The translations under genes and the position numbers were made by a program. This document shows positions 9,480-25,687 of a DNA stretch of 27,087 nucleotides, piece by piece. This stretch comes from a virus, in IMG/VR virus record IMGVR_UViG_3300045016_000019, positions 1-27,087 of that record; one strand, given 5' to 3'. The notes under the pieces are model-generated. The model searched no databases. It saw nothing but the letters and a program-made list of their open reading frames with translations, and was not told the DNA's origin. Each line of letters opens with the position of its first letter. Positions within the stretch are counted from its first letter, which is position 1.

Positions 9480-10898
9480 TTAGGTCGCGCGACCGATGTT
9501 CTTGATCGCGTAGATCCGCTCGGGCGCCAGCCACAGCGGCATCCCATACAGCCCGTAGGCGAACGGAATGTTCAGATCCACCATCGCGAGCTGGATGCGG
9601 AAGAAATCAAGCAACTGCTTCCACACATACACGCGCGGATCTTCCTGTACGATGAAGCACCACATCGTATTCGCACGGTAGGCATTCAGATCCACAATCG
9701 GCGTCGCATCAGGAACCCCGAGACCGTCACGGTGCTGCGGCACCTTCATGATCTCGTAGTAGTCGCTTCCGCCCTTCTCCGTCCGCAGAATGCTGTAGTA
9801 CAGCACGTTGTCGGAACCCGGCGCCTGGATGGTACACCCAGCAGCATCCCCGGCCGCAGCGACAGTCACTGGAGCCGCAGCAGTCGCCGCCGACTTGCCC
9901 AGCGCCCCAACCGCCACGATCCGGTAGTTATACACCCCGGTATCAGTGGAGTTGAACACCGACCCGCCAGTCGCGCCAAGATCGGCCCAGGCCACGCTGA
10001 TTGTCGGGGTGGATGGATACGTGGTCCCAAGCGCCGTGAAAGCAGTCACCTTCTTGAAGGAAGGAGACATGAAGATATCCCGCTCGAACGGAACAACGCC
10101 ATCCTTGGTCGGAGCGTTGATGCCGGTCGCGGTCTTCCCCATCATGGTCACAGCATCCGCGCCCATGTAACGAACGTGCGGGAAGATCACCTGATCCAGA
10201 TCGTTCTGCAACTCAGGCGCAATCCAGACCTTATTCGGCATGCCGTAGTACGGAGCAACCATCAGGTTCGCAATCACATCTCGAACCTGCTTGGTGTCCA
10301 GAGGCGACCCCTGCATATCCAGCACATTGCCCTGCGTCACGCAGGTCTTGGCGATGCCGTTGAACTGGTAGGGATTCGCCGACTCGTCGCCCCACAGAAG
10401 ACCCATGTTCAACTGACGGGCCTGCCAATCGGCCGCGTCGATGTTGGCCTTCTCGATGGCGCTGTTCGCCCCGATGATGGAATCGAACTGGCTCATCGGA
10501 TGGGTCACAACGCGCTTGTGGACGAAGAACTTGCACCTGGCGTAAAGAGCCTGGAACACGGAATCAATCGACGGACCAACCGACCCCTCGGCCGCGAACC
10601 CGTCCAGGTCGATACCGAGGCTGGTCTGCCGACGGTATTCGTGAACGGCATTCTTGATCTTCGTCGCATCCTTCGGGAACTTCTGCCAAAAGACCGAATG
10701 CTCGGCCTTCGACGTGATCTGAGTCAGCGTCATCTCGATGGACTGCGGCAGCAGCGGACCACCGACACCACCACCAGAATACGAGGGAACCGGCGTTCCG
10801 GCATCCAACGACTTCTGGGCTTCCATCAACTCCTGGAAACTCTTGAACGGGGAATCCCCGCCCATCTTGTCAACCAGACCCCCAAGCATCTCACTCAT
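9480..10898 (-). CDS. Major capsid protein (HK97 fold) with fibronectin-like insert
   Basis: 472 residues, with a strong GGGAGG seven bases before the ATG at 10898. An N-terminal arm (1-~55) contains a Gly-rich motif shared with the preceding protease-scaffold gene. From about residue 56 the protein reads as a capsid of the kind that starts 'LPQSIEMTLTQITSKAEHSVFW'. It continues with a helix-rich core ('RQLNMGLLWGDES', 'NLMVAPYYGMPNKVWIAP') and ends in 'DFFRIQLAMVDLNIPFAYG'. At about residues 293-408 an inserted beta domain has 'GVYNYRIVAVGALGKSAATAAAPVTV' and 'YYSILRTEKGG', the pattern of a fibronectin III/Ig-like domain, probably displayed on the outer surface. It follows protease and scaffold, as expected. 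Bases are GC-rich with strong C/G third positions, consistent with high expression. Confidence 0.88.
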   Translation of the reverse strand: MSEMLGGLVDKMGGDSPFKSFQELMEAQKSLDAGTPVPSYSGGGVGGPLLPQSIEMTLTQITSKAEHSVFWQKFPKDATKIKNAVHEYRRQTSLGIDLDGFAAEGSVGPSIDSVFQALYARCKFFVHKRVVTHPMSQFDSIIGANSAIEKANIDAADWQARQLNMGLLWGDESANPYQFNGIAKTCVTQGNVLDMQGSPLDTKQVRDVIANLMVAPYYGMPNKVWIAPELQNDLDQVIFPHVRYMGADAVTMMGKTATGINAPTKDGVVPFERDIFMSPSFKKVTAFTALGTTYPSTPTISVAWADLGATGGSVFNSTDTGVYNYRIVAVGALGKSAATAAAPVTVAAAGDAAGCTIQAPGSDNVLYYSILRTEKGGSDYYEIMKVPQHRDGLGVPDATPIVDLNAYRANTMWCFIVQEDPRVYVWKQLLDFFRIQLAMVDLNIPFAYGLYGMPLWLAPERIYAIKNIGRAT

Positions 10899-10920
10899 TC
10901 TTTCCTCCCTTTGTTCCTAT

Positions 10921-11634
10921 TTACTCAATCACCTTCACGCCTTCCGCCGTCAGGCGGTCGCGCGTGAACTTCTCACCAGCATCAGCCGCAGTCATCAGGG
11001 CACCAATTCGATTGCGCTCTCCCTGATTGGTCGCAGCATTGAACGCCGTCAGAAGAGACTTGGCCATCACGGCACGCGTAAGCGGCTGCGGACCAGAACC
11101 ACCATTGTCCATGCTCTTTACCATCACGTCGCCTGGCTGCACGCTCTTGCGATGCACCGGGATCTTGAGCGACTTCTCGATCTCTTCCAGCCGCGCCGCC
11201 AGCGGATTCACAACCTCGCCGATCTTGTCGGTCAGACTCTTCGACAGATCGCCGAACGACTTCGACAGATCCAGCGTCGGGGCCGGAGTCAACTTCTCAG
11301 CAGCCTTTTCACCCTTGCTCAGAAGATTGATCTCGACCACTCCGCCCTTGGCGACATGCTCATCAGCCTGCCTGAATGCCTCACGAAGAGACAGACTCTT
11401 CAGAGCCTCCTCTTCCTTCTTCTCCTCCGCCTTCGTCTCGCCCTCTTCCTTCTTCTCTTCGGGCTTGACGTCCTCGGCCTTCTCCATCTTCGTGTCCTTG
11501 TCCTTGTCCTTGTCCTCTTCCTTCTTCTCCTCGGCCTTCTCCTCCTCCCAAGCGCCGACAGCCTTCAGGGCTTCCTTCTGCTTCTCGGGGGCGAGACTGC
11601 CAAACGCACTCGCCAGATCCTTCTCGTCCTTCAT
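10921..11634 (-). CDS. Nested in-frame scaffolding protein (internal start)
   Basis: The ATG at 11634 is codon 227 of the protease-scaffold frame and is preceded by GGGAGG six to seven bases upstream, as good as the ribosome binding site of the capsid gene. It would yield a 237-residue scaffold without the protease, beginning 'MKDEKDLASAFGS', exactly at the change from linker to the Lys/Glu-rich helical region. Lambda makes its scaffold Nu3 from an internal start in the protease gene C in the same way. What is visible is the start signal; use of it is inferred. Confidence 0.65.
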   Translation of the reverse strand: MKDEKDLASAFGSLAPEKQKEALKAVGAWEEEKAEEKKEEDKDKDKDTKMEKAEDVKPEEKKEEGETKAEEKKEEEALKSLSLREAFRQADEHVAKGGVVEINLLSKGEKAAEKLTPAPTLDLSKSFGDLSKSLTDKIGEVVNPLAARLEEIEKSLKIPVHRKSVQPGDVMVKSMDNGGSGPQPLTRAVMAKSLLTAFNAATNQGERNRIGALMTAADAGEKFTRDRLTAEGVKVIE

Positions 11635-12312
11635 CTCCGAACCTCCCTTGTAGATTTTCACCAACCCCTGATTAAGCGACTGGGGCAACGTTGCCCCGCC
11701 GCTGCCTCCACCGGAATATGTAACAGATGTATTTCCAGCATCAACGGACTTGCTCATCACCGACAGAAGACTCTTGGCTACAACTTCAAACGTTGCCTCG
11801 GGATTAACCGGATGCCGCGTAACAGCAACATCCATGACAAGCGCCTTGGCAATCGTCTTTCCATCTTCGCCAGTTCGACTGACAATTGGTCCCTGAATAC
11901 TGAACCCAAGTTGTCTGCCGGCTTCCTGTGCCCTCATTGCCAAATCGGCAATCTCTTCACCCTTCTGCGTCGCCAGAAGATAACCCTCAACATAGGCCGC
12001 CCGCCCCTTACGACCAGTCTTGGGATTCTCGTATTCGACATCCGGCTTCACGTCCAATGGAAGCCCAACACCGCCGGCCGTTGTCTTGTCATGATCATCG
12101 TTGAACCAACCATGATCCTTCCAGTACGACCAATCTAGTCCATCCTGTAGGACTCTTTCGCCCTGATAATCAGCCGGAAGATCGGTCGAGGCATATCCGC
12201 GAATGATCGTTCTATTCTTGCGCCCCTTGGCAACCTCAGCCGGAACAAAGACACTGAACGTATCGTGTACGTTCCATTCTGTTCCGCCAATCATTACCTT
12301 CGAAGCAATCAT
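10921..12312 (-). CDS. HK97-type prohead maturation protease fused to scaffold
   Basis: 463 residues; GAGG five bases before the ATG at 12312. Residues 1-~182 are an S78-family prohead protease: 'IIRGYAST', His67 in 'KDHGWFND' (His74 is an alternative), Ser138 in 'QLGFSIQG' and the closing 'MDVAVTRHPVNPEATF' element. Residues ~188-213 hold a Gly-rich motif almost repeated in the capsid N-terminus. Residues 227-~400 are Lys/Glu-rich and probably helical, typical of scaffolding protein, and the last ~60 residues are helical, probably the capsid-binding end. Protease and scaffold would guide assembly of the prohead and then be cleaved out. The next gene is the capsid. A nested start for free scaffold is listed separately. 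Confidence 0.88.
   Translation of the reverse strand: MIASKVMIGGTEWNVHDTFSVFVPAEVAKGRKNRTIIRGYASTDLPADYQGERVLQDGLDWSYWKDHGWFNDDHDKTTAGGVGLPLDVKPDVEYENPKTGRKGRAAYVEGYLLATQKGEEIADLAMRAQEAGRQLGFSIQGPIVSRTGEDGKTIAKALVMDVAVTRHPVNPEATFEVVAKSLLSVMSKSVDAGNTSVTYSGGGSGGATLPQSLNQGLVKIYKGGSEMKDEKDLASAFGSLAPEKQKEALKAVGAWEEEKAEEKKEEDKDKDKDTKMEKAEDVKPEEKKEEGETKAEEKKEEEALKSLSLREAFRQADEHVAKGGVVEINLLSKGEKAAEKLTPAPTLDLSKSFGDLSKSLTDKIGEVVNPLAARLEEIEKSLKIPVHRKSVQPGDVMVKSMDNGGSGPQPLTRAVMAKSLLTAFNAATNQGERNRIGALMTAADAGEKFTRDRLTAEGVKVIE
11494..11516 (-). repeat. Hexanucleotide tandem repeat in scaffold region
   Basis: On the plus strand the hexamer gtcctt occurs three times in a row (11494-11511), followed by a partial fourth copy. 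It encodes the Asp-Lys repeat 'DKDKDKD' in the charged part of the scaffold. Repeats of this kind can change copy number without breaking the frame. Confidence 0.75.
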
Positions 12313-14520: not shown

Positions 14521-14997
14521 CTACGCCCCGATTACAATCCGAACACTCTTCTCGACCTTCGCTAACTTAGTGTAGTAGTTTTTATCTTCCGACAGGTGAT
14601 CCAATGCGATTTGCTTCGCTTCTTTCGGATCGTCTGTATGTTCACGTTCTATCTCGATGCCAACCTTCAACTCTTCCGGGTCTGCATCAGCCTCAGTGAA
14701 CCTTTCCTTTTCGGACTCACCACCGGACAGCGCCTTTTCATGCTCCGCCCAATGCTCCTTGAGCCATGTCTGCGCCTTCTTCTTGTCGAACTTCGGCTTC
14801 GCAAACAGCAATGTTTGCGCTTCCATTGGCCCATCCTTGGTCTTTTTGCCGAAGACAGCCTCTACCCCATCAGTCAACTGCTTGGTTCTGAACGTCTTAT
14901 CATCGAACTCATCCGGGTCAATCAGCCTATGCCGCCAGTGATTCTCTTTCTCATCCCAACCGCCCTTTACTACGTCACCAATTCTATAGGTAATCAT
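14521..14997 (-). CDS. DUF5661-like phage protein
   Basis: 158 residues; GAGG seven bases before the ATG at 14997. The C-terminal segment 'KVGIEIEREHTDDPKEAKQI' followed by 'DHLSEDKNYYTKL' is the pattern I associate with DUF5661, a small helical domain of unknown function frequent in phage head gene clusters. The N-terminal half ('HWRHRLIDPDEFDDKTFRTK', then 'AQTLLFAKPKFDKKKAQTWL') is a segment often seen with it or with XkdF-like proteins. It overlaps the 36-residue Cys-rich ORF by four bases. Role unknown; the neighbourhood suggests head assembly. Confidence 0.75.
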   Translation of the reverse strand: MITYRIGDVVKGGWDEKENHWRHRLIDPDEFDDKTFRTKQLTDGVEAVFGKKTKDGPMEAQTLLFAKPKFDKKKAQTWLKEHWAEHEKALSGGESEKERFTEADADPEELKVGIEIEREHTDDPKEAKQIALDHLSEDKNYYTKLAKVEKSVRIVIGA

Positions 14998-16487: not shown

Positions 16488-19385
16488 TTAACTCGCTTGT
16501 TCTTTGAGCTTCGCTTCGATCCGCCTGAACACTTCAGATATCTTCTCAGTCGGTTTCTCAGATGTTTCCTTTACCAGCGCATTCATCGCCGGGATCTCAG
16601 ATTCATCCTCGTGACTTAACGACTTCTCTTCACTTACGGCCTCTTCAAGATTGCCTTCAGCCGACTCTCCTTCCCCGATTACTGGCCCGGACTCGCCCCT
16701 TTCCCCAGAGGGCTTTTCTGCCCCTTCCCCGGCCATGTCTACATTGGCTTTCTCCTCTTCTCCTGGAGGTGGCTGCTGCGCCTGAATCTGCTTCTGCGCT
16801 TCGGCCAACTGGTGAAGTTGAACGATGATTGGATTACACGGGATATCACCGGCTGGACCAAGATCCGACAGATCCTTCTCGGCGCGAAGTTCATTGGGCT
16901 TCAAGTACGTCTGCAACCGCATCTGGTCCAGTTGCGCTTGCTCCATCTCTGACAAGGTACTCAGCCCGAGGAATCGAATCTCGAAGTCTGGATTGATTCG
17001 CCAGATAATGTAGCGATTCAACCAGTATGAAATCGAACGTAGCAGTGGACGAAGGCCCTTGTCCTTGCCTGCTTTCAGTTTTGCCTCCGGCGATGTCTCA
17101 AACATAGGACTCGACCGACCGCCCTCCGGCTGATAGTAGAATCCAACTTCCGATGGCTCAATTTGGAAAAGTGAACAATTATGGACACACACCTGACTTG
17201 CAACATAGGTATGTGTTCTACTTGTTTCTAAGTTAAACACATCACCGACGAATCGTTCAGTCGATATATCTGTAATAGGCACACAGTAATATCCGTCCAA
17301 ACTATAGCTCTTTGATCGCATCGGCGAGCAATCACCATTGGCAACCTTTTTATCCCGATTCGCCAATTGGCAACGAAGCAAATCGCCCTTCTCGCCCAAC
17401 AACCATTTCGCTATTGAGTACAAACTCGTTCCATTGACTCGATATGACTGTAGCGATTTGTGTTTTTTATCTTGCCTTTTTGTTTCATAGACTCCCCCAT
17501 AAACACCCTGCCTAAGCATCATGCTTTGAAATTCAGTGACGGCACGTTCGGACACAGATGAGTAACTCAATGATACAACATTGTTGCCTGTTACCCATAC
17601 GGAACCATCACCAGCAATTGCCCCAGATAAAAACGCTTTCTGTATATTGCGTGGGGCATCCCATAGTTCATCAGGGATCTTAATGTCCACCGAACCGCCA
17701 CCGAACATTTTCCTAAAAGCTCGACCATATACAGCCGAATTTATCTGGACAACTGCACCGTTGGTTTTTTCATACCTGACAACATTAGACTTGCATCCGA
17801 TTCTCTCGGCAAATCTAATAGCTCGATTAATCAGTTCCGTTTCATTTATATTAAAACTATATGTGATCCGATAGTCGGTTGTTGATCCTTCTGCCATGAA
17901 TAAACCAAGCACAAACGCACTTTCTTCGTCCAGATCGATGTATCTAGCAACGGTCTTTGCGTGATTGCCATTAGGCTTTATTGAGTCTTGCTCGATATTA
18001 AAATCTCCATATTTCGATACATCAATACGGCTACACGTTCCTTCATCGCTGGCAGGTTTCGGAACGACAAGAAAATCACCCACTGCTAAGTCTCGCGAAC
18101 TTCTCCATTCTGGTTTCCCAAATATCCTCGGTGTGTGATTGACTGCACTAGAAGGTACAACCAAAAACGGATGTTCCGATGTCGCCTTAATTAACCGACC
18201 CCCTACTCGGATAGCATATATATCTTCATCAATCTCCTTGCGTTGAATGTTTGCAACGCTATCTGCTTTCCCATCAACCGCCAGTACCTTGTCACCGGGA
18301 CATATATCCTCAATAGCCTTGTGTTGCCCATTTGCAAGCATTACCGGCGTTCCATCGACAAAACACAACAGTCTGAAGTTAGCATTCACCCATTCGGCAA
18401 ACTGAATGTCGCTTGGACTTGCCCCAGTGAACGGAATCCACTTGAGATCCGCTCCCTGCCCGGCAGGATTGACCACCACAGTCCTGTGCGCGTTCTTGAC
18501 GCTCACAGCCTGGAACATCAACTGCCGCTGGAACACACGGAAGTTCTTCTCAGGCATATCCCCCAGCACCGCCAGCACGCCCTTGGGGCCTCCCTGCCGG
18601 AAGAAGTTCATGTTGTACGACCATCCGAACATCATGGCCGTCAACACGTTAATCAGTTCGACCAACTCCGGGTATCCATACAGACCGGACTTAACATCGG
18701 TTCTTGGCCGACGAATACCGAAACACATCTCATCGGCGGAGAACCAATTCTTTCTTGTGCCATCTATTACCTGGACATACGCAGCATCATCTTCGGCATA
18801 ATCGCCATACTCGTTTTTTGGTGCTACCTTATAAATCGTCGAAGCATCGACTGCCACCCATCTTGCCGGTATTCCTCGTTTGTCTGGAATTATCTCAAAT
18901 ACCGAGGCATCATATGTAAGGCTATCCCATGTAATCTTGCGAAGGAATGTCTCGAATGAATCTGCTGTCGTAGAGTACAAACTATCAATCGGAGACCCAC
19001 AAGTCATCATCAGATCGCGAATGCGATCCATTTCACGCCGTTCATACGGCTGCGGATGCTTCTTGGGATCTCGCGTCGCAATTACAAACCCCATCTCGAA
19101 TTGGCTCTGGCGTGGCGTCGCAAACTCAGATACCTGATTCTGCCGTGTCGAGATTACAGCAGAGGCCCATGGCTGTACGGCCATCTGTTTCAGCGCGAAG
19201 GCCCCATATGGATTGTGTGATTGGAGAGAGTCAATGTACTCCTCCATCAACTGCATCTCATAGGGGTCAACGATTAACGACCGACGTTCCTTGGGAGGAC
19301 GCTTCTCTCGTGTGTATTCCCTGCGTCCCTTGCCGCCCTTGGCCGATAGTCTGTCTGGATTGTTGTGAAGCATGGCGCCGCCCAT
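16488..19385 (-). CDS. Portal protein interrupted by an intein
   Basis: 965 residues; GAGG six bases before the ATG at 19385. Residues 1-340 and 737-965 together (569 residues) make a portal protein: 'QPWASAVISTRQNQV', 'TWDSLTYDASVFEII', 'YGYPELVELINVLTAMMFG' and, across the splice point, 'NANFRLL/CSLFQIEPSEVGF', the conserved portal segment near the crown and stem. The last ~100 residues are acidic, Glu/Gly-rich and probably disordered. Twelve copies would form the ring through which terminase packages DNA. Residues 341-736 are an intein, listed separately. The portal can work only if the intein removes itself. Confidence 0.9.
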   Translation of the reverse strand: MGGAMLHNNPDRLSAKGGKGRREYTREKRPPKERRSLIVDPYEMQLMEEYIDSLQSHNPYGAFALKQMAVQPWASAVISTRQNQVSEFATPRQSQFEMGFVIATRDPKKHPQPYERREMDRIRDLMMTCGSPIDSLYSTTADSFETFLRKITWDSLTYDASVFEIIPDKRGIPARWVAVDASTIYKVAPKNEYGDYAEDDAAYVQVIDGTRKNWFSADEMCFGIRRPRTDVKSGLYGYPELVELINVLTAMMFGWSYNMNFFRQGGPKGVLAVLGDMPEKNFRVFQRQLMFQAVSVKNAHRTVVVNPAGQGADLKWIPFTGASPSDIQFAEWVNANFRLLCFVDGTPVMLANGQHKAIEDICPGDKVLAVDGKADSVANIQRKEIDEDIYAIRVGGRLIKATSEHPFLVVPSSAVNHTPRIFGKPEWRSSRDLAVGDFLVVPKPASDEGTCSRIDVSKYGDFNIEQDSIKPNGNHAKTVARYIDLDEESAFVLGLFMAEGSTTDYRITYSFNINETELINRAIRFAERIGCKSNVVRYEKTNGAVVQINSAVYGRAFRKMFGGGSVDIKIPDELWDAPRNIQKAFLSGAIAGDGSVWVTGNNVVSLSYSSVSERAVTEFQSMMLRQGVYGGVYETKRQDKKHKSLQSYRVNGTSLYSIAKWLLGEKGDLLRCQLANRDKKVANGDCSPMRSKSYSLDGYYCVPITDISTERFVGDVFNLETSRTHTYVASQVCVHNCSLFQIEPSEVGFYYQPEGGRSSPMFETSPEAKLKAGKDKGLRPLLRSISYWLNRYIIWRINPDFEIRFLGLSTLSEMEQAQLDQMRLQTYLKPNELRAEKDLSDLGPAGDIPCNPIIVQLHQLAEAQKQIQAQQPPPGEEEKANVDMAGEGAEKPSGERGESGPVIGEGESAEGNLEEAVSEEKSLSHEDESEIPAMNALVKETSEKPTEKISEVFRRIEAKLKEQAS
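17178..18365 (-). mobile_element. Intein with LAGLIDADG homing endonuclease in portal
   Basis: 396 residues (341-736 of the portal frame). It starts with Cys341 in 'CFVDGTPVMLANG', has the block B 'ATSEHPFLVV' (T402, H405) and ends in 'THTYVASQVCVHN' with His735-Asn736, followed by Cys737 as the +1 residue: all residues needed for standard class 1 splicing. Two LAGLIDADG-like helices, 'FVLGLFMAEG' (E499) and 'FLSGAIAGDG' (D593), keep their acidic residues, so cutting activity is plausible. The DNA is visibly AT-rich: 17821-17880 has 20 G/C of 60, against about 40 of 60 at 18541-18600 in the portal. That contrast supports recent arrival from another genome. Confidence 0.93.
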
Positions 19386-23461: not shown

Positions 23462-23751
23462 TCGTTAGATTCTCTCATGATCTGCAACCAGTCCTCGCAC
23501 ATTGTCACACATTTTTCTCTAGCCCGAATCAGATTCGCACATGACACTCTCCCTTCGGCCCACGATCTCTCCACATTATACGCGGTATAGCTTTTGTTGG
23601 GCGTGATGTTGGTGCGAATCTCCGGCATCATGTCTATCCTGGCGCCCATCGGCTCCAATATCACTCTATATTGCTCTATCGGACATCTGCCCGGCGCTTC
23701 GACTCCGCAAGGCCGATGAAATACCGGATCTTCACGAATTGATGTTATCAA
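23458..23751 (-). CDS. Small Cys-containing protein of unknown function, TTG start
   Basis: 97 residues. The start is TTG at 23751, forming TTGA with the previous stop and preceded by GGGAGG six bases upstream. The ATG three bases earlier is in another frame and ends after seven codons, so TTG is supported. Cysteines are at 'PCGVEAPGRC' and 'SCANLIRAREKCVTMC'. The C-terminal part is helical. No family is recognised. Base composition marks it as part of the phage body rather than the GC-rich cassette upstream. Confidence 0.65.
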   Translation of the reverse strand: MITSIREDPVFHRPCGVEAPGRCPIEQYRVILEPMGARIDMMPEIRTNITPNKSYTAYNVERSWAEGRVSCANLIRAREKCVTMCEDWLQIMRESNE

Positions 23752-24644
23752 TCATTTCCTCCCATGATTTCTTTCAGCATCTTCCTTGCCGCCTCCAAAT
23801 CCGCATCAGTATGCGCCGTGCCGCCGCAGTTGAACTTGATGTAGAACCGCAACCGCTTCTCCAGCGGCCAGTCCACATAGACCACCCGCATGTCTGGCAG
23901 GTTCGTGTAATCGTTCTCGTTCATGTCACATGCCCAAAACACCCGCCCGTCCGACACTTCGGCCGGAATCTCCCCGGCAAACCAGTGCGCAATCGCCCGG
24001 CACCGCTGCTGCCCGTCAATCACTTCGGGCCGCAAGTTGCAGTAACTCTGGACCACCGCGCGATCCTCCGGGGTCACGTTCTTCCAGGAATCGTACCGCT
24101 GGACGAAGATCGGGTTGACCTTGCCACCCTCCAGCAAGTGCCCGATGAACAGGGACGCCTGCCGGTCCGTCCAGACCGCTCCCCGCTGATACGCCGGGTT
24201 CAGATTCCAGCGCCGCCAGTAGCTCCCCTCACTCTCCCTTTGCCCGGTCACGAAGTCATTGATGAACCGCATGGACTGGTCCACGCCATCGATGTACTTG
24301 AAGCCACGATCCATCAGCGCACAAACACCGATCCCCTGCCCGACCTCACACGTCCGGCCCGCCTTCAAGATCGGCACGGCCCAGTCGAAGAACTCCGCTG
24401 TGCTCTTGCACACCTTCTCCAACGGCAGGTCCATCCATGTCGTCGGGTGCCCCGCACCGCCTTCCATCCGGCCACGCACCAAGAACTCCCCGTCCACGTT
24501 CGGGAACCGGCCACCGATGAAGATGCGGCTATGGCCGTACTGGATTGACCACCCATCTTGAGCCGTCCGGGCGTATACCTGCAAGCCCGTCAACTCGCAC
24601 AGACGGTCAACCAATGCCTTCAACTTCTCGTCATATTGTCCCAT
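23748..24644 (-). CDS. DUF262 / ParB-like domain protein
   Basis: 298 residues; ATG at 24644 forms TAATG with the upstream stop. Residues ~115-298 hold a DUF262 domain: 'NLNPAYQRGAVWTDRQASLF' (147-166), the hallmark 'VIDGQQR' (208-214), and the C-terminal 'FYIKFNCGGTAHTDADLEAA'. DUF262 belongs to the ParB/Srx superfamily and occurs in GmrSD-type restriction enzymes and in many stand-alone phage proteins; the DGQQR motif is linked to nucleotide binding or hydrolysis. The first ~110 residues are a separate domain I do not recognise ('YGHSRIFIGGRFPNVDGEFLV'). There is no HNH nuclease domain, so this is not a complete GmrSD. Function is open. Confidence 0.8.
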   Translation of the reverse strand: MGQYDEKLKALVDRLCELTGLQVYARTAQDGWSIQYGHSRIFIGGRFPNVDGEFLVRGRMEGGAGHPTTWMDLPLEKVCKSTAEFFDWAVPILKAGRTCEVGQGIGVCALMDRGFKYIDGVDQSMRFINDFVTGQRESEGSYWRRWNLNPAYQRGAVWTDRQASLFIGHLLEGGKVNPIFVQRYDSWKNVTPEDRAVVQSYCNLRPEVIDGQQRCRAIAHWFAGEIPAEVSDGRVFWACDMNENDYTNLPDMRVVYVDWPLEKRLRFYIKFNCGGTAHTDADLEAARKMLKEIMGGND

Positions 24645-25687
24645 TATTCCATCACTCTCTGCTTGCCGTCATTCATTTTCTCGATTGTGCCCCACAAGCC
24701 TTGCTCCACCAGCCTCACGCACAAATCATTCAGTGCCTCTCGGGCAGGTTCCCTGCGAAGCGCACACGTCTGGTAGAGCGCGTCCATTCTGGCCTCCTGC
24801 GCTTCCGCCCACTCGACAAGTTCGTCGTAGGACCATGCACCCTTGCGAATGGCCCGGATCTGATCCGCGTCCCGGTCCCCACGCCAGACATGACACTTGC
24901 CTGTCTCCAGAATTTCCACGCCCATCGTTAACAGACGGTACAGGTGTCCAGCGTGCTTCACGTCGTAACCGTACTGTGCCTCCAACGCAGCACGCGCCGG
25001 ATTGCGGTTGGCCTGCCAGTTGGTGTAGCTGTCCCAGTTGGCCTTGGCGTCGGCATAGGCCCGCTCTCGCCGCAGAAGCTCCACGCCTTTATCGTCGAGT
25101 CCTAGCCCGCGCTGTTCGGCTGGCGTGAGCATCAGTAGGGCGTTCAATTGCTCCGGCCGCACTACCTTGTGGTCGATGGGCAAGCCGTAGCCCGGCCGCT
25201 CGGGCTTCTCTCCAGGCGGGTTCAGCAGCCAGTCGCGGTGTGTGCGGATGCGCTTCAACTGCGCCATGGCGTAGCCCGCGAACGTCCAACGCGCCTTCTT
25301 CGTCAGAAACAGGTCGCGACTTTCGCGCAGGATGCGCCCCAGGCGTGTCTGTAGCCGCACGTCCTCGTCCCGGCAGAACAGCACGTCCAGGATGTTGGGG
25401 TTGCAGTCGGCCGCCAGCCCGATGAACTTCTGGATGCCGTAGACTGCGCCCTCCAGCTTCGTAGCCGTGGCAACCGCGCGCTCCTCGTCCGTCAGTAGAT
25501 CGGTAAACGCCGTGAAGTGCCCCGGCTTATCCGCCTGCTCGAATGGGTGGGCAAAGCCCAACACCACGGACCGTGGCGGAATACACACGCCCTTGCAGTC
25601 CACGTCCGACTCCTCGGTGTGGATGCCGTAGGCGCGCGAGCCTGCCAGCGTGAACAGGATAGTACGCGAGCGCAGGTCGAAGTTCAT
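24644..25687 (-). CDS. RlaP-like nucleotidyltransferase-fold protein
   Basis: 347 residues, overlapping the upstream gene by four bases. The N-terminus has the polymerase beta-type nucleotidyltransferase signature 'LAGSRAYGIHTEESDVDCKG' (GS, then D-x-D), and residues ~80-110 have 'GIQKFIGLAADCNPNILDVLF', as in the COG3541 / RlaP family of predicted nucleotidyltransferases. T4 encodes RlaP next to an RNA ligase, and similar proteins are frequent in phages. The rest is helical. The substrate of this family is unsettled; RNA or tRNA repair is a guess. The sequence is strongly GC-rich. Its neighbours are a DUF262 protein and an adenine methyltransferase. Confidence 0.85.
   Translation of the reverse strand: MNFDLRSRTILFTLAGSRAYGIHTEESDVDCKGVCIPPRSVVLGFAHPFEQADKPGHFTAFTDLLTDEERAVATATKLEGAVYGIQKFIGLAADCNPNILDVLFCRDEDVRLQTRLGRILRESRDLFLTKKARWTFAGYAMAQLKRIRTHRDWLLNPPGEKPERPGYGLPIDHKVVRPEQLNALLMLTPAEQRGLGLDDKGVELLRRERAYADAKANWDSYTNWQANRNPARAALEAQYGYDVKHAGHLYRLLTMGVEILETGKCHVWRGDRDADQIRAIRKGAWSYDELVEWAEAQEARMDALYQTCALRREPAREALNDLCVRLVEQGLWGTIEKMNDGKQRVME

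Follow-up and report, generated by a model that had tools for sequence, protein, structure and literature searches.

A copy of the mature capsid N-terminal arm in the protease tail of SPO1-type phages and its possible role in capsid assembly

The window, a stretch of 27,087 nt representing the ~27 kb record IMGVR_UViG_3300045016_000019 of a virus of bacteria, carries a head-and-tail module of the contractile-tail type on its minus strand. The module encodes the terminase, the portal, a Mu F-like head protein, a protease-scaffold, the capsid protein and the sheath. The portal protein (16488–19385, minus strand) is interrupted at about residues 340–736 by an intein that includes a LAGLIDADG homing-endonuclease domain (Pfam Intein_splicing and LAGLIDADG_3). 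Also on the minus strand, a nucleotidyltransferase of the RlaP RNA-repair family (24644–25687; Pfam PF10127, phrog_388) is directly adjoined by a gene for a GmrSD_N/DUF262-like domain protein (23748–24644; Pfam PF03235). A DUF5661 protein (14521–14997, minus strand; Pfam PF18905) is encoded between the portal region and the protease-scaffold, and its C-terminal end is a Lys-Ser site (KVEKSVRIVIGA).

The major capsid protein (9480–10898, minus strand; 472 aa) belongs to the SPO1-type HK97-fold proteins by its profile (PHROG 752, E=2.3e-57) and by a fold match over the whole protein. Its sequence matches SPO1 gp6.1 (PDB 9vel) with E=1.6e-34, and its AlphaFold model matches chain 9vel_D (Foldseek E=2.8e-33, TM 0.73). 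It is distantly related to SPO1 gp6.1 and to the capsid protein of phage 812. Residues 29–54 (10737–10814, minus strand; KSLDAGTPVPSYSGGGVGGPLLPQSI) contain the first copy of the motif studied here and form the predicted start of the mature N-arm; residues 30–46 are predicted to be flexible in the AlphaFold model. The predicted maturation cut, Lys29|Ser30 (10809–10814, minus strand), has its homologous bond in phage 812.

The protease-scaffold fusion protein (10921–12312, minus strand; 463 aa) was identified by its match to head maturation proteases (phrog_1028, E=1.6e-35). Its protease domain, residues ~34–178 (11779–12213, minus strand), contains the candidate catalytic residues His74 and Ser138, both of which are invariant in 49 sequences. 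The model of this domain has pLDDT values mostly of 84–98, and its fold is nearest to the EBV and HCMV proteases (Foldseek probability 0.98–1.00). Profile, conserved His and Ser, and herpes-protease fold together place it among the tailed-phage prohead proteases of the herpesvirus-assemblin fold. The second motif copy occupies residues 188–213 (11674–11751, minus strand; KSVDAGNTSVTYSGGGSGGATLPQSL), or 180–220 in a gapped match, in a tail that is predicted to be disordered (AlphaFold pLDDT < 50 at 181–186 and 191–227). The scaffold part follows at residues ~228–463 (10924–11631, minus strand), with predicted coiled helices and seven Lys-Ser sites. An earlier note on this DNA had taken KSMDNGGSG at residues 399–407 (11092–11118, minus strand) for a shorter relative of the motif. 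The sequence is found at that position in the C-terminal region of the scaffold, but it is one of the scaffold's series of Lys-Ser sites and not a third arm copy; an RKSV...EKSF-type context resembling its surroundings occurs in 45 of 132 scaffolds.

An ungapped alignment of capsid residues 29–54 with protease-scaffold residues 188–213 gives 16 identities over 26 residues and 47 over 78 bases. Our recount thus reproduces the alignment of the earlier note exactly, and places it far above chance. The matching bases number 16, 21 and 10 of 26 at codon positions 1, 2 and 3, respectively, and the same codon is used at 6 of the 16 identical residues. When both proteins were shuffled, the best ungapped 26-residue match reached at most 10 identities (60 shuffles). 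The gapped match, which spans capsid residues 19–61 and protease residues 180–220, scored 89, whereas 200 shuffles reached 64 at most. Among the proteases of 142 phages, the best match to the window's capsid arm was its own protease tail (89; next 58), and a search of the whole record for the arm found these two copies only.

Relatives were gathered by capsid-alignment scans, yielding 145 non-redundant capsid/protease pairs (142 usable) of the SPO1-type capsid lineage, which includes SPO1, 812, P100 and Thermus phages. The largest scan used FWKK- and TVEEY-like patterns and was unselective for the match, because these patterns lie outside the shared arm; the protease profile included the tails, which may have mildly biased the set. 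Single-protein scans of viral contigs returned one 99% relative without the arm, or nothing, and a scan of genome contigs returned four myxobacterial MAG contigs. In 123 of the 142 phages (~85%, about five-sixths), the capsid N-terminus matched its own protease above all 60 shuffles, the typical pairing being between capsid residues 20–65 and the tail directly behind the protease domain. The motif is thus present in homologous pairs at the same two places, where the earlier note had suggested looking for it. The match can be seen by eye in the capsid and protease, respectively, of SPO1 (KALEAGHTVNPLDLEGGGAFRVESL and KSLEAGYEVDPEKMEGGDVFRKESL), 812 (KSFQTGYGITPDTQIDAGALRREIL and KSFLTGHGTSPDTQVDAGALRKEEI) and the Thermus phage phiMa (TAGDPHALDFKAGLTGVPAIRLES and TAGDPHALDPKSGLTGVPAIRRES). 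Ten of 11 complete phage genomes have the arm at exactly two places, the capsid protein and the protease, and Lalka8 has it at one; no third copy scored above 50 in the neighbouring genes (2704 ORFs). A clear copy is missing from about 15% of the relatives, whose capsids presumably form without one. When HK97, T4, D3, LE1 and DAC19 were checked, no arm copy was found, and T4 gp21 matched neither gp23 nor gp24.

The position at which the match begins was analysed by aligning the pairs on the conserved lysine. Own-pair identity, 0.11 at P2, jumps to 0.82 at P1 and then stays at ~0.3–0.8 across some 30 residues, while upstream of P1 it is at the cross-phage background. In the 122 aligned pairs, the match therefore starts at the predicted cut lysine of the capsid and covers the prime (C-terminal) side only; the aligned tail dipeptide is KA, KS, KT or KG in 97 of them. 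The position of capsid Lys29 is invariant in 41 capsid proteins. The mature capsid chains of phage 812 (PDB 9row, 9rox and 9roz) comprise 439 aa, residues 25–463, and start at Ser25. Because these chains begin one residue past the motif lysine, the lysine very probably marks the cut site. For SPO1, the 445 modelled residues of chain 9vel_B equal 468 less 23, the chain length expected if gp6.1 is cut there as well.

On this evidence, the Lys|Ser bond of the capsid protein is very probably cleaved, and the motif is, as far as the alignments indicate, the cut site together with the N-terminus that the capsid protein acquires on maturation. As the shared part lies wholly C-terminal of the cut, it would be kept in the capsid protein as its mature N-arm. 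The placement of the motif at the maturation cut by the earlier note thus holds for its start, at the probable cut Lys29|Ser30, whereas nearly all of the motif would be kept in the mature capsid. The bond aligned with this cut in the protease tail, Lys188|Ser189 (11746–11751, minus strand), is the predicted site of a self-cleavage.

Lys-Ser dipeptides are abundant in the scaffolds, occurring 899 times in 132 proteins versus 272 expected (a 3.3-fold excess) and often being followed by a hydrophobic residue; in the capsid shells, they are depleted (110 versus 146 expected). Despite this excess, the arm copy is absent from the scaffolds. Scaffold Lys-Ser sites without the arm suggest that cleavage probably needs little beyond Lys-Ser/Ala-hydrophobic, in which case the remaining ~28 residues must have another role. 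To call the motif a protease recognition site therefore covers half of what is seen: the Lys|Ser bond is very probably cut, but the ~30-residue extent towards the C-terminus and the scaffolds without an arm do not agree with this description.

Independent drift of two copies from an old duplication would leave a phage's capsid arm no better matched to its own tail than to the tail of another phage. Instead, the own match exceeded the cross-phage match in 97–100% of cases at capsid identities of ≤40%, in 94% at 40–50%, in 92% at 50–60% and in 77% at 60–70%, so that the excess rises with divergence. Concordant changes in both copies were found at 25 positions versus 7 in a swapped control (46 independent neighbour pairs; p=0.002). 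At 2387 identical residues in 106 pairs, 1104 codons were identical, where 1080±23 are expected from codon usage. Copies that are matched within phages and differ between them, with codons that show no excess from DNA copying, indicate that the proteins co-evolve, and the constraint is, judging from the sequences, one that acts on the proteins.

Across phages, the capsid arm predicted how similar the tail copies are (beta 0.79); when the arm was left out of the model, this similarity was predicted by the capsid shell (0.58) and also by the scaffold C-terminus. The protease domain, which lies in the same polypeptide, did not predict it in the pooled set (0.05, p=0.28); as a control, the protease C-terminal region beyond the tail does track the protease domain (0.34). 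With the length-matched capsid segments 2 and 3, no protease-domain effect above chance was seen, while segment 1 gave a small effect with a beta of 0.17 (p=0.037). For the Jeremy/Thermus-like phages, part of the pair specificity is explained by the protease domain (beta −0.27, p=0.010). The analysis of discordant phage pairs as possible recombinants covered 103 clean pairs, free of truncated protease fragments. These results, which are correlations among linked genes, favour the capsid or the scaffold as the partner of the tail. The earlier note had suggested testing the motif for co-variation with the protease; in the pooled set, the tail copy follows the capsid arm and not the catalytic domain. 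Together with the length of the shared part and the scaffolds that are without it, this makes docking, targeting or exosite binding a better fit than a protease recognition site alone.

Chance is an unlikely source of the paired copy, which has the look of a functional signal for docking and cutting during capsid assembly. We propose, with belief and doubt about evenly balanced, that the tail copy is a self-cleavable docking tag, a mimic of the capsid N-arm that allows prohead entry. During assembly, the flexible protease tail would bind the same partner as the capsid arm, which we guess to be either the capsid lattice or the C-terminus of the scaffold. Docking of the tail would bring the protease, here as the protease-scaffold fusion, into the prohead beside its substrates. 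At maturation, the protease would cleave behind the lysine of each of its targets, namely the capsid protein, the scaffold and its own tail; the self-cut would free the protease, while the capsid cut would expose the mature arm. Of these steps, we infer the docking, its partner and the self-cleavage.

The docking-tag reading is in line with a tail predicted to be disordered, with the weaker copies in fused proteins and with precedents in SPN3US and HK97. The location of the tail behind the catalytic domain fits, by position, a predicted C-terminal capsid-targeting signal. Copy strength had a median of 50 in fused and 101.5 in separate protease-scaffolds (p=1.6e-4, uncorrected for kinship, the fused examples being mostly interrelated with a mean capsid identity of 0.53). 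Weaker copies in fusions fit a docking tag because a fused protease reaches the scaffold without one. The window's own protein, however, is a fusion with a strong copy (89), which counts against this reading, as do the protease-domain effect among the Jeremy/Thermus-like phages and the relatives that lack a clear copy. A more specific form of the proposal, to which we give somewhat less than an even chance, is that throughout the lineage the protease passes into the prohead in the guise of a capsid subunit. The tail would then be a co-evolving decoy of the mature N-arm that occupies an arm-binding site in the lattice or on the scaffold and is subsequently self-removed.

The main alternative is extended substrate recognition, in which an exosite of the protease would bind the ~30 prime-side residues, and the tail would act as a cis-substrate or as an autoinhibitory pseudo-substrate until assembly. 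A similarity that begins at P1 and is confined to the prime side is what such binding would produce, and the Lys, Ser/Ala and following hydrophobic residue common to both copies, as well as the independent protease-domain effect in the Jeremy/Thermus-like set, point the same way. We nevertheless consider it a rather doubtful explanation, given the many scaffold Lys-Ser sites without an arm, the independence of the tail from the catalytic domain in the pooled set and with segments 2 and 3 (segment 1 being the exception), and a monomeric AlphaFold model that places no ordered tail on the protease domain. A motif conserved through protease recognition only, as the earlier note had it, would account for the invariant Lys29 and its homology to the mature N-terminus of 812, but a match that extends ~30 residues past the cut, varies between phages and is missing from the scaffold cut sites makes this improbable.

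Functionless repeated copying of DNA between the two genes, by duplication or gene conversion, would be helped by their closeness and could give an own-phage-specific match. It is very improbable, as codon matches at identical residues are no commoner in the 106 pairs than codon usage predicts and the copy has a single place and a single start residue across the set; on the codon counts, we reject gene conversion between the capsid and protease genes. Finally, the window motif is rich in Gly and Ser, as a linker would be, but shared composition or chance is refuted by relatives that pair likewise with quite different sequences and, in the window itself, by a score well above the shuffle maximum, leaving this explanation practically no weight.

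The closest known system is the Herelleviridae head module of SPO1 (gp3.2 protease, gp3.3 scaffold and gp6.1 capsid), which has homologous capsid and protease proteins, the same gene order and both arm copies in the corresponding positions. Protease and scaffold are fused into one protein in the window and in 13 other tested relatives, whereas in SPO1 they are separate genes. In HK97 and D3, where the capsid protein carries the scaffold as a domain, the protease gene adjoins the capsid gene and the system is of the same kind, but the protease is without a capsid-arm copy, unlike that of the window. The HK97 capsid protein is cut between Lys103 and Ser104, and the C-terminus of the HK97 protease is reportedly a capsid-targeting signal (Duda et al. 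2013). In encapsulins, a short cargo-loading peptide at the tail of an enzyme loads it into an HK97-fold shell. The protease tail would, as proposed, load its enzyme into such a shell in a like manner; unlike it, encapsulin peptides are not known to be cut off or to be copies of the shell protein. The protease gp245 of SPN3US has a C-terminal propeptide that is self-removed at a substrate-type site and has been proposed to be a targeting signal (PMC7411985). SPN3US gp245 and T4 gp21 resemble our proposal in their C-terminal propeptide and capsid-targeting sequences. Their cleavage motif is short and T4-like, and no ~30-residue copy of the mature arm that co-evolves with the capsid is described there.

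C-terminal targeting signals and self-cut propeptides of proteases are therefore already known. A ~30-residue arm copy that co-evolves with the capsid is undescribed in the literature searched, which excluded most subscription papers, among them the original SPO1/A511 work, and should be regarded as not found rather than not known. The loading and restraint of prohead proteases are poorly understood outside HK97 and T4, and the arm copy marks a protease segment of interest in SPO1, 812/K relatives, P100 and many uncultured phages. It predicts both cut sites, may serve as a sequence-based predictor of mature capsid N-termini and offers a natural tag for loading proteins into these capsids. Four relatives in the set (L030, L048, L049 and L051) have kept a typical capsid arm and lost the protease-tail copy, and are natural deletion cases for a comparison of protease loading.
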